Source: Syntrophothermus sp. DTU052
GTDB lineage: Bacteria > Bacillota > Syntrophomonadia > Syntrophomonadales > DTU052
DNA: 60,800 bases
Assembly: GCA_001512495.1 (NCBI GenBank)
Contig: LFRU01000036.1
Coordinates: forward strand, 1-60,800
Direction: 5' to 3'
The notes under the pieces are model-generated. The model had not been told where the DNA came from and did not search any database. It saw only the letters and a list, made by a program, of their open reading frames with translations. Both the position numbers and the translations under genes were made by a program. Below are positions 29,757-41,689 of this stretch, piece by piece; position 1 is the first letter of the stretch, and each line of letters starts with the position of its first letter.

Positions 29757-29855
29757 GGAAGCGGATCGGTCCTGGTGGGTCGCCTGGACTTCAAATCCAG
29801 TTTGCGCCGCAGTGGCCCTGCGGTGGGTGGGTTCGATTCCCACACGCTTCCGCCA
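29757..29855 (+). tRNA. selC: tRNA-Sec (anticodon UCA)
   Basis: A 99-nt tRNA with the long variable arm (GCCGCAGTGGCCCTGCGG region) typical of tRNA-Sec. The anticodon stem-loop CTGGACTTCAAATCCAG carries TCA. The acceptor GGAAGCG pairs with CGCTTCC, the T arm GTGGG-TTCGATT-CCCAC is intact, and the 3' end encodes G-CCA. It closely resembles the E. coli selC layout. The eighth acceptor pair is a G-A mismatch. It reads UGA as selenocysteine with SelA and SelB. Confidence 0.95.
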
Positions 29856-38389: not shown

Positions 38390-39676
38390 ATGTCCACAGT
38401 TGTTTTGGTGGGAGCCCAATGGGGTGATGAAGGTAAAGGTAAGATTACCGACTTCCTGGCCGAAAAAGCCGATTATGTTGTCCGGTATCAGGGAGGAAGT
38501 AATGCTGGACATACAGTGGTAGTGGGGAATGAGAAGTTTCAGCTCCACCTGGTTCCTTCAGGAATTTTATATCCGGACAAGGTGTCGGTGATCGGCAACG
38601 GCGTGGCACTGGATCCGGTTATCCTATTACAAGAGATAGACAATCTGAGCCAAAAGGGGATCGATGTCAAAAATCTTAAAATCAGCAGCCGGGCCCATAT
38701 TGTTATGCCTTATCACAAGAAACTGGATTCGCTTCAGGAAAATGGTGGCCGCAGGATTGGTACCACCAGGAGGGGAATAGGGCCGCTGTATACTGATAAG
38801 ATGAGCCGCACCGGATTCCGGGTTATCGACCTTCTGGATAAAGATTTGTTTCCCCGGCGGCTAAAGGCTATTGTGGAGGAGAAAAACCGTATCCTGGAAA
38901 AGATATACGGGAGTCCGGCCTTCGTTTACCAGGAACTCCTGGATGAGTTCTGTTATTACGCCGAACGTCTGCGCCCGATGGTTACAGATACCTCGCTGTT
39001 GGTTAACCAGGTCATCGACGAAGGCAAAAAGGTGCTGTTTGAAGGGGCCCAGGGTACCCTTTTGGATATTGATCACGGAACCTACCCTTATGTAACCTCG
39101 TCTCATCCGGTTTCCGGGGGTGCCTGTGTGGGAGCGGGCGTTGGACCAACCCGGATTAATCGAGTGGTGGGCGTGGTAAAGGCCTATACCACCAGGGTTG
39201 GAGAGGGGCCTTTCCCTACTGAATTGTTTAATGAGGCCGGTGAGCTTATTCGGCAGCGGGGTGATGAGTACGGCACAACTACCGGCAGACCGCGGCGGTG
39301 TGGGTGGCTGGATGCGGTTATTCTAAGATACGCTGCCAGAATCAACGGTTTAACCGACATAGCCATTACCAAATTGGATGTGCTCGACACCTTTGACAAG
39401 GTCAAGATCTGTATAGCCTATCGATACCGGGGTCAAATTATACAGGAGTTTCCGGAGAGCCTGGAAGTACTACGGGAGTGTGAACCGGTTTATATTGAGA
39501 TGGATGGTTGGCAGCAGGATATTGCCGGTATCCGGCGTTTTGAGGACCTACCGCCGAAAGCACAGGAATACGTGAATAAAATGGTCGAATTATGCGGGGT
39601 AAACCACTGCCTGTTAGCAGTAGGTCCGGGCAGGTCCCAAACCATGGTAACCAGGGATCTCTTCGCACCCGCGTAA
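38390..39676 (+). CDS. purA: Adenylosuccinate synthetase
   Basis: GTP-dependent first step from IMP to AMP, joining IMP and aspartate. The 428 residues show the catalytic GAQWGDEGKGKITD at the N-terminus, NAGHTVV, GTTRRGIGP and TTTGRPRRCGWLD. Length and motifs are normal. ATG 38390 follows CAGGAGGTGG. The stop lies only 2 bp before the tRNA promoter. Confidence 0.98.
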   Translation: MSTVVLVGAQWGDEGKGKITDFLAEKADYVVRYQGGSNAGHTVVVGNEKFQLHLVPSGILYPDKVSVIGNGVALDPVILLQEIDNLSQKGIDVKNLKISSRAHIVMPYHKKLDSLQENGGRRIGTTRRGIGPLYTDKMSRTGFRVIDLLDKDLFPRRLKAIVEEKNRILEKIYGSPAFVYQELLDEFCYYAERLRPMVTDTSLLVNQVIDEGKKVLFEGAQGTLLDIDHGTYPYVTSSHPVSGGACVGAGVGPTRINRVVGVVKAYTTRVGEGPFPTELFNEAGELIRQRGDEYGTTTGRPRRCGWLDAVILRYAARINGLTDIAITKLDVLDTFDKVKICIAYRYRGQIIQEFPESLEVLRECEPVYIEMDGWQQDIAGIRRFEDLPPKAQEYVNKMVELCGVNHCLLAVGPGRSQTMVTRDLFAPA

Positions 39677-39721: not shown

Positions 39722-39798
39722 GGGCGATTAGCTCAGCAGGTTAGAGCGCTTGCCTCACATGCAAGAGGTCGGGGGTTCGAATCCCTCATCGCCCACCA
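39722..39798 (+). tRNA. tRNA-Val (anticodon CAC)
   Basis: A 77-nt cloverleaf. The acceptor GGGCGAT pairs with ATCGCCC, the anticodon loop CTCACAT carries CAC, the T arm has TTCGAAT, and the 3' ACCA is encoded. It reads GTG valine codons. Confidence 0.95.
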
Positions 39799-39823: not shown

Positions 39824-39893
39824 GCCTCGGTAGCTCAGCTGGTAGAGCAGCGGACTGAAAATCCGCGTGCCGGCGGTCCGCCCTGAGGCACCA
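39824..39893 (+). tRNA. tRNA-Phe (anticodon GAA) with deleted T loop
   Basis: The acceptor GCCTCGG pairs with CTGAGGC. The D arm (TAGCTCAGCTGGTAGAGC) and the anticodon arm GCGGA-CTGAAAA-TCCGC are normal, and CCA is encoded. The T arm reads GGCGG-T-CCGCC, so six bases (a TTCGAT-type stretch) are missing from the loop and total length is 70 nt instead of 76. Without the T loop it cannot make the usual elbow contacts. It is either a pseudo-tRNA, a strange but working variant, or a sequence error at a palindrome. Confidence 0.8.
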
Positions 39894-39900
39894 TACATGT

Positions 39901-39975
39901 GCGGGAGTAGCTCAGTGGTAGAGCATCGGCTTCCCAAGCCGAGGGTCGAGGGTTCGAATCCCTTTTCCCGCTCCA
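39901..39975 (+). tRNA. tRNA-Gly (anticodon CCC)
   Basis: A 75-nt cloverleaf. The acceptor GCGGGAG pairs with TTCCCGC, the anticodon arm TCGGC-TTCCCAA-GCCGA carries CCC, the T loop TTCGAAT is intact, and the 3' TCCA is encoded. Confidence 0.94.
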
Positions 39976-40022
39976 TTTTTAAAGTTGTCTTGATTTCGGA
40001 CGGTTATGAGGAGAGTGAAAAA

Positions 40023-40160
40023 GTGGGCAAACACCTGAAAACTGTAATCCAACCCAACTTGAAGAACGGAAAAGATACTAATTGCAGAGAGTGTCTGGCT
40101 TCATGTCAGTCGGCCTGCAAGACCTCATGCACAGTTGGCAATCAGGTCTGCAGAAAATAG
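40023..40160 (+). CDS. scfA: SCIFF peptide (six cysteines in forty-five residues)
   Basis: Precursor of a ribosomally made, post-translationally modified peptide. The 45 residues end CRECLASCQSACKTSCTVGN followed by QVCRK, with all six cysteines of the SCIFF family. The maturase ScfB forms thioether links from these cysteines in characterised Clostridia. GTG 40023 lies 9 nt after AGGAGA and gives the family length; a longer frame runs back through the tRNAs. A strong hairpin follows at 40265-40291, before scfB. Confidence 0.94.
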   Translation: MGKHLKTVIQPNLKNGKDTNCRECLASCQSACKTSCTVGNQVCRK

Positions 40161-40264
40161 CTTTTTCCGGAAATCCTATGCATGCATTCCTACAAGTCCG
40201 GGTATCTTGATAAATCCGCTTAGCGTATTATTTTGTGAATATTAGCCCATATATTGGGAGATAT

Positions 40265-40300
40265 AGGCCCTACCTGCAGATGGTAGGGCCTTCAATCCTT
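40265..40300 (+). terminator. Hairpin between scfA and scfB
   Basis: A perfect 10-bp stem (AGGCCCTACC 40265-40274, GGTAGGGCCT 40282-40291) with a 7-nt loop and a partly T-rich tail. Partial termination would give excess peptide over maturase. Confidence 0.7.
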
Positions 40301-40318
40301 ATGGAGGTTGGTTTGCTC

Positions 40319-41689
40319 GTGATTAATCTGTGCCATTACAACTTTTCCGCCAATATACACCTGTTTCGCATGAAAGACACTAACATCCTGCTGGATGTCA
40401 ACTCGGGTGCGGTTCATGTCCTGGACGACCAGACCTTTTGTTTTGTTGAGGAGCTTATCCGGAATCGAGGTGATTGGGAACTGGCTCAGAGCCGGACTGC
40501 TGCCGCTTACTCGCCCGAGGCGGTGAAGGAAATCGGAAAAGAGATAGAGGAGGCCTATCGGGCTGGAAGTCTATTTACCGAAGAGGCGGAGGCTGAATTC
40601 GATTACGGCAGTTTCTTTCCCAAATCCATCTGTCTTAACGTGGCCCACCTCTGCAATATGCGATGCAGATACTGTTTTGCTCAACAGGGAAGCTTCGGGC
40701 AATCTCAGGGATTAATGAGTATGGAGGTCGCCCGGCAAGCGGTTGATTTCCTGATCAGGAGCAGTGGACCGAGAAAAAATCTGGAACTTGACTTTTTTGG
40801 GGGTGAGCCCCTGCTTAATATGGATGTTGTCAAAGCCACGGTCGAATATGGAAGGGAACGTGCCTCCCAGGCGGGGAAACAAATAAATTACACCCTAACC
40901 ACCAATGCCCTGTCTCTTGACGAACAGGTGCGGGATTACCTCCTGGCCGAGGATATTAGCGTTATCCTCAGTCTCGATGGCCGCCCCCAGGTTCATGACC
41001 GTATGCGAATCCTTGCTGACGGGGGAGGTACTTACCAACGGATTGCACCACGGATTCAGGCTATGGTGGCGTCAAATCCAGTTAGTTATTTTGTCAGGGG
41101 AACTTTTACCGCCCAGAATCTTGATTTCACCAAGGATTTTCTACACCTGGCAGGCCTGGGTTTCGAAAATATTTCGCTGGAACCGGTGACTGGAGGCGAG
41201 CCGGAAATCGCTCTAACGGAAGAACACCTGCCGCAGATTGCTGCCCAGTATGAAGAACTGGCGGAGATTATTCTGGCCCGTGAGAAGGAGGGAAAACGGC
41301 TCAATTTCTTTCATTTTAATCTGGATTCGAACGGACCATGTTTGGCCAAAAGACTGACCGGATGTGGTGCCGGGATTGAATACCTGGCAGTGACCCCGGA
41401 AGGAGATATCTTTCCCTGTCACCAATTTATCGGCATACCCGGGTTCAAAATGGGTGATGTCAAGGAAGGAACAGTTGATGATTCGGTGCGCCAGAGATTT
41501 GCGGGCAATACGCTCACTCACAAGGAGTGCCGTAACTGTTGGGCCAGGTTCCACTGTGGAGGCGGCTGTCACGCCCTGGCTTATTTCCAGAACGGGAATA
41601 TGTCGGTTCCCCATCAGTTAGCCTGTCTGATGCACCAGAAACGCCTGGAATGTTCATTTTATATGGCGGCCAGAAGAATGGAGGGTTAA
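40319..41689 (+). CDS. scfB: SCIFF radical SAM maturase
   Basis: Radical SAM/SPASM enzyme that installs thioether crosslinks in the ScfA peptide. About 456 residues. The N-terminal RiPP-recognition part has NILLDVNSGAVHVLDD. The radical SAM cluster motif is CNMRCRYCFA, followed by FFGGEPLL. The C-terminal SPASM auxiliary clusters include CGAGIEYLAVTPEGDIFPCH and CRNCWARFHCGGGCHA. GTG 40319 is 11 nt after GGAGGT; TTG 40313 and ATG 40301 are alternatives, so the N-terminus is uncertain. Confidence 0.93.
   Translation: MINLCHYNFSANIHLFRMKDTNILLDVNSGAVHVLDDQTFCFVEELIRNRGDWELAQSRTAAAYSPEAVKEIGKEIEEAYRAGSLFTEEAEAEFDYGSFFPKSICLNVAHLCNMRCRYCFAQQGSFGQSQGLMSMEVARQAVDFLIRSSGPRKNLELDFFGGEPLLNMDVVKATVEYGRERASQAGKQINYTLTTNALSLDEQVRDYLLAEDISVILSLDGRPQVHDRMRILADGGGTYQRIAPRIQAMVASNPVSYFVRGTFTAQNLDFTKDFLHLAGLGFENISLEPVTGGEPEIALTEEHLPQIAAQYEELAEIILAREKEGKRLNFFHFNLDSNGPCLAKRLTGCGAGIEYLAVTPEGDIFPCHQFIGIPGFKMGDVKEGTVDDSVRQRFAGNTLTHKECRNCWARFHCGGGCHALAYFQNGNMSVPHQLACLMHQKRLECSFYMAARRMEG

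Follow-up and report, generated by a model that had tools for sequence, protein, structure and literature searches.

A tRNA-Phe gene of Syntrophothermus sp. DTU052 with a six-base deletion in the T loop, a probable pseudogene of a second gene copy

Introduction

In the draft genome of Syntrophothermus sp. DTU052, one tRNA-Phe(GAA) gene appears normal in all its parts except the T arm, in which a single base separates the two strands of the stem. The question raised by this locus is what such a gene represents: a dead gene, a novel functional variant of tRNA, or a normal gene misrepresented by the assembly. These three options had been named from the letters of the DNA, in what we refer to as the sequence-only reading. 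The gene lies in a stretch of 60,800 nucleotides of contig LFRU01000036.1 (assembly GCA_001512495.1), which was analysed as a whole and is called the window here; all positions given without another source are those of the window.

Results

Structure of the tRNA-Phe gene

The gene is the middle one of a tRNA trio located between purA and the genes of a peptide precursor and its maturase. The relevant features of the locus are as follows:

38390-39676, + strand: purA, adenylosuccinate synthase, the upstream synteny marker (NCBIfam TIGR00184 and NF002223, above cut-off; same position in the congeners G002 and G003)
39722-39798, + strand: tRNA-Val(CAC), intact, first of the trio (ARAGORN; Rfam, 73.3 bits; identical in G002 and G003)
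39824-39893, + strand: tRNA-Phe(GAA) with a 6-nt T-loop deletion, probable pseudogene of a second copy (sequence; Rfam, 53.6 bits; missed by ARAGORN; 70/70 bases as in G002 apart from the deletion)
39872-39882, + strand: residual T arm GGCGG-T-CCGCC, with the deletion junction at about 39876-39877, its placement being ambiguous over the GT repeat (alignment to the L063 and L064 orthologues, both intact and with GGCGGTTCGAGTCCGCC)
39901-39975, + strand: tRNA-Gly(CCC), intact, third of the trio (ARAGORN; Rfam, 72.1 bits; identical in G002 and G003)
40020-40160, + strand: precursor of the SCIFF six-cysteine ranthipeptide, a downstream synteny marker (NCBIfam TIGR03973, 63.4 bits; conserved in G002 and G003)
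40310-41689, + strand: radical-SAM SCIFF peptide maturase, a downstream synteny marker (NCBIfam TIGR03974, 516.7 bits)

On the + strand, the tRNA-Phe gene reads GCCTCGG-TA-GCTC-AGCTGGTA-GAGC-A-GCGGA-CTGAAAA-TCCGC-GTGCC-GGCGG-T-CCGCC-CTGAGGC-A-CCA. No irregularity is seen in the acceptor stem, D arm, anticodon arm, variable loop, A73 or encoded CCA. As judged by the sequence and its Rfam alignment, the gene has the GAA anticodon, the paired acceptor, D and anticodon stems and the 3' CCA that are expected of a functional bacterial tRNA-Phe, and it lacks the 5-bp T stem with a 7-nt T loop of the TTCRANN type, its whole T arm being 11 nt long. The match to the Rfam tRNA model RF00005 (cut-off, 29 bits) lacks six T-loop positions and nothing else, and scores 53.6 bits vs. 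69.8 bits of the intact orthologue in a congener. ARAGORN does not call this gene, while it calls both its neighbours, Val(CAC) and Gly(CCC). Thus, the sequence and the Rfam alignment uphold the sequence-only reading of the T arm as six bases short in an otherwise normal gene, and its description of the adjoining tRNA-Val and tRNA-Gly as intact agrees with their detection by both ARAGORN and Rfam.

Of the stem-loop proposed in that reading, the letters stand and the fold does not, since a 5-bp stem closed by a 1-nt loop is impossible. The predicted fold of the 11-nt arm is a 4-bp stem with a 3-nt loop (-3.7 kcal/mol, vs. -8.0 kcal/mol for the intact 17-nt arm). Folding of the whole RNA was uninformative, as neither the short nor the intact sequence has a cloverleaf as its predicted optimum. 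All other non-Sec tRNAs that were recovered from the genome (n = 37) have a 7-nt T loop of the TTC type.

Intact orthologues in congeners and the deletion event

Two congeners, G002 and G003, share the order purA, tRNA-Val(CAC), tRNA-Phe(GAA), tRNA-Gly(CCC), SCIFF peptide, and in both of them the tRNA-Phe gene at this locus has a normal 7-nt loop (GGCGG-TTCGAGT-CCGCC). The 70 bases of the short gene are all identical to those of the G002 orthologue, which has six extra bases, each of them in the T loop; one substitution separates the short gene from the G003 orthologue. With these orthologues intact, the gene shows one part of what defines a tRNA pseudogene, as it is homologous to a functional gene and has lost a conserved element of the structure, the T loop. 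We also note that the genes of the SCIFF precursor and its radical-SAM maturase (40020-41689) follow directly 3' of the tRNA trio, the purA-tRNAs-SCIFF order being kept in the congeners.

The six lost bases can be equivalently placed as GTTCGA, TTCGAG or TCGAGT, with GT on both sides of TCGA. The ancestral T loop was, in other words, a GT...GT direct repeat with a 2-bp microhomology, enclosed by GC-rich hairpin arms, and a deletion by replication slippage fits this arrangement.

The pairwise intergenic distances (0.176, 0.168 and 0.216) assign a length of about 0.064 per site to the window branch. Along the whole of this branch, 70 neutral sites would be expected to gain about 4-5 changes, with a Poisson probability of about 0.01 for none. 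The unchanged state of the 70 bases leaves three cases: a deletion that postdates the split of the species, a remnant on which selection still acts, or a deletion that is not real.

Second-copy status of the gene

The tRNA-Phe gene of the purA locus is a genus-specific second copy, the main copy being that of an Asp-Phe-Gly-Cys-Leu cluster. Both G002 and G003 have an additional, intact tRNA-Phe gene in a separate cluster of the order Asp(GTC)-Phe-Gly(GCC)-Cys(GCA)-Leu(TAA), and in most relatives with a match the tRNA-Phe gene sits in an Asp-Phe-Gly-Cys-Leu(TAA) cluster. In G004, a genome from a sister genus, only about 25 bp lie between purA and the Gly(CCC)/SCIFF region, and Gly(CCC) is the sole tRNA gene there, which indicates that the Val and Phe genes entered the purA-SCIFF locus within the genus. 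Elsewhere in the G004 genome, a stretch of 26 bp reproduces the tRNA-Phe anticodon arm exactly, with no tRNA around it (L118, G004:C46:5203-5228); possibly, it is a fragment left by a mobile element.

The assembly that contains the window (2.28 Mb in 113 contigs, with an estimated completeness of 99.5%) yielded 38 Rfam tRNA matches and a tRNA-Sec, a set from which the tRNAs Asp(GTC), Cys(GCA), Leu(TAA) and normal Phe are all absent. The Asp, Cys, Leu(TAA) and Phe tRNAs are indispensable. One flank of the G002 cluster matches contig C90 (19792 bases) at its start, reaching base 145, and the other matches contig C103 (115901 bases) at its end, reaching base 115837; there is no tRNA gene on either of these two contig ends. 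Since the flanks fall at two contig ends, the cluster is placed in the assembly gap between C90 and C103. The intact main tRNA-Phe gene most likely lies in this gap, its presence being deduced from the gap rather than seen directly, and the short gene is thus most likely not the sole tRNA-Phe gene of the genome. The search for a second tRNA-Phe gene, which the sequence-only reading had proposed as a check, finds none in the assembly, a negative result that is misleading, as the expected cluster belongs to the gap. It illustrates a practical trap: an essential tRNA cluster can be absent from a draft genome of 99.5% completeness, and a broken spare gene then looks like the only tRNA-Phe gene.

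Discussion

Pseudogene of a redundant tRNA-Phe copy

The explanation that we consider likely is that the gene at 39824-39893, a redundant tRNA-Phe copy, was recently inactivated by a real micro-deletion and is now a young pseudogene. In the genus, tRNA-Phe(GAA) is encoded twice, by the main gene of the Asp-Phe-Gly-Cys-Leu cluster and by a second one between Val(CAC) and Gly(CCC), downstream of purA. In this genome, the second copy would have lost six T-loop bases, probably by replication slippage from one GT dinucleotide to the other across the GGCGG/CCGCC hairpin. Any transcript of the short gene, devoid of U54/Psi55/C56 and of the contacts between the D loop and the T loop, would be expected to fold and mature poorly, and the short RNA would presumably be degraded or inert, with Phe-tRNA supplied by the main copy. 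Bacterial EF-Tu cannot bind a tRNA analogue that lacks the T arm (PMC4013460). What counts against a pseudogene is that the main copy is known only indirectly, through the gap, and that the 70 remaining bases are unchanged relative to G002, with no decay visible; this unchanged state is compatible with a recent event, with an artefact, or with continued selection. Among the options of the sequence-only reading, the dead gene is the one that gains from our results, as the gene turned out to be a genus-specific duplicate that is intact in two congeners. If the gene is a dead duplicate, its importance is small: it represents a tRNA gene that was lost by a single micro-deletion within its own hairpin and is seen before further decay.

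Assembly or strain artefact

The main rival explanation, which we consider unlikely, is that the gene of the cell has a normal T loop, and that the six bases were lost when a polymerase or the assembler skipped the GC hairpin, or that a minority strain variant was chosen. Fragmentation of the assembly into 113 contigs and the absence of decay in the remainder of the gene are consistent with such an artefact. The assembly of the congener G001 also breaks at this tRNA trio, which marks the site as hard to assemble: in G001, the match breaks off at query base 488, at the start of C3, and begins again at base 719, at the start of C170. However, skipping is usually a matter of single reads and does not reach the consensus, the genes on both sides are intact, and no deletion is present in the assembled orthologues of G002 and G003. 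Moreover, the deletion is plausible as a product of biological slippage, being exactly what a GT...GT repeat across a hairpin would give in DNA. Either explanation, a pseudogene or an artefact, makes the finding an ordinary one. Concerning G001 itself, its break (C3/C170; L096 and L102) is located exactly at the Val-Phe-Gly trio, as expected if a near-identical second tRNA-Phe gene confuses the assembler.

Functional tRNA with a minimal T arm

A functional tRNA-Phe whose T arm is minimal (4 bp and a 3-nt loop) and which is still aminoacylated, serving beside the canonical tRNA-Phe or in its place, is very improbable, and we give marginally less credence still to a transcribed tRNA of this form that acts in translation or regulation under selection, as the 70 unchanged bases would allow. 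A functional tRNA would be in line with the intact acceptor stem, D arm, anticodon arm, A73 and encoded CCA, with the lack of any substitution in the 70 bases (the intergenic rate, taken along the entire window branch, predicts about 4-5), and with the short T arms of nematode mitochondrial tRNA-Ser, which are functional at 10-13 nt (PMC7609411). However, a recent event would account just as well for the missing decay, and neither the GTDB genome contigs that were scanned nor the 300 genomes searched from the phylum contained another gene of this kind. In the former, a pattern for tRNA-Phe with a 1-nt T loop, which matches the window gene as a control, gave seven matches, none of them in a tRNA. 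In the latter, a tRNA-Phe gene with such a loop was found in the window only, the control pattern for an intact loop having matches in 191 of the 300 genomes.

Both EF-Tu C-termini of the genome, which also bear on this explanation, are ordinary. They are identical over 117 shared residues and end at SINE, without the C-terminal extension of about 60 residues (domain 3') that is present in nematode mitochondrial EF-Tu1, a protein that binds T-armless tRNAs (PMC4013460). A mitochondrial type of T-armless system would comprise an EF-Tu so extended and several or most tRNAs without a T arm; here, the shortened arm concerns one of the 39 recovered tRNA genes. A short tRNA that worked in a bacterium would be at odds with present knowledge of how EF-Tu binds tRNA; nothing in our results supports it or speaks in favour of the novel functional variant suggested by the sequence-only reading.

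Scar of a mobile element

The 3' halves of tRNA genes are common attachment sites of mobile elements. A scar of an element that used the tRNA gene in this way is the least credible of the explanations and was rejected, as the locus is collinear with those of G002 and G003, has no adjoining insertion and is intact on both sides of the lost bases, even though tRNA gene fragments that derive from integrated elements are described (PMC9897764).

Comparison with known systems

In its acceptor stem, D arm, anticodon arm, GAA anticodon, variable loop and CCA, the short gene equals the intact gene of the congener and resembles bacterial tRNA-Phe(GAA) of RF00005, from which it differs by the loss of six of the seven T-loop bases, so that U54, U55 and C56 cannot all be present. 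As a low-scoring and structurally defective extra copy, it is similar to the tRNA pseudogenes and gene fragments of prokaryotes (PMC9897764). The fragments described there arise from CRISPR-Cas activity or from the integration of mobile elements, whereas here a full-length gene carries one internal micro-deletion. The reduced T arm, of 11 nt as compared to 10-13 nt in tRNA-Ser, is reminiscent of the tRNAs of nematode mitochondria whose T arm is short or missing (PMC4013460, PMC7609411). Unlike in that system, a single bacterial gene is concerned, its D arm and the other tRNAs of the genome are normal, EF-Tu is ordinary, and there is no sign of co-adapted factors. Most likely, the short tRNA-Phe is not a new kind of tRNA.

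Additional observations

The scan of the phylum also matched two real tRNA-Phe genes with full-size 7-nt loops that start with TCC (in G165 and G199), together with three sequences that are not tRNAs. In these two genes (L119, 1471-1546, and L120, 1481-1556, minus strand), C replaces the usual U55, the pseudouridine site, and no tRNA-Phe of the TTC type was matched by the control pattern in either genome. In the window, a selenocysteine tRNA gene is present at 29757-29855 (Rfam, 72.7 bits), which indicates that the organism probably makes selenoproteins.
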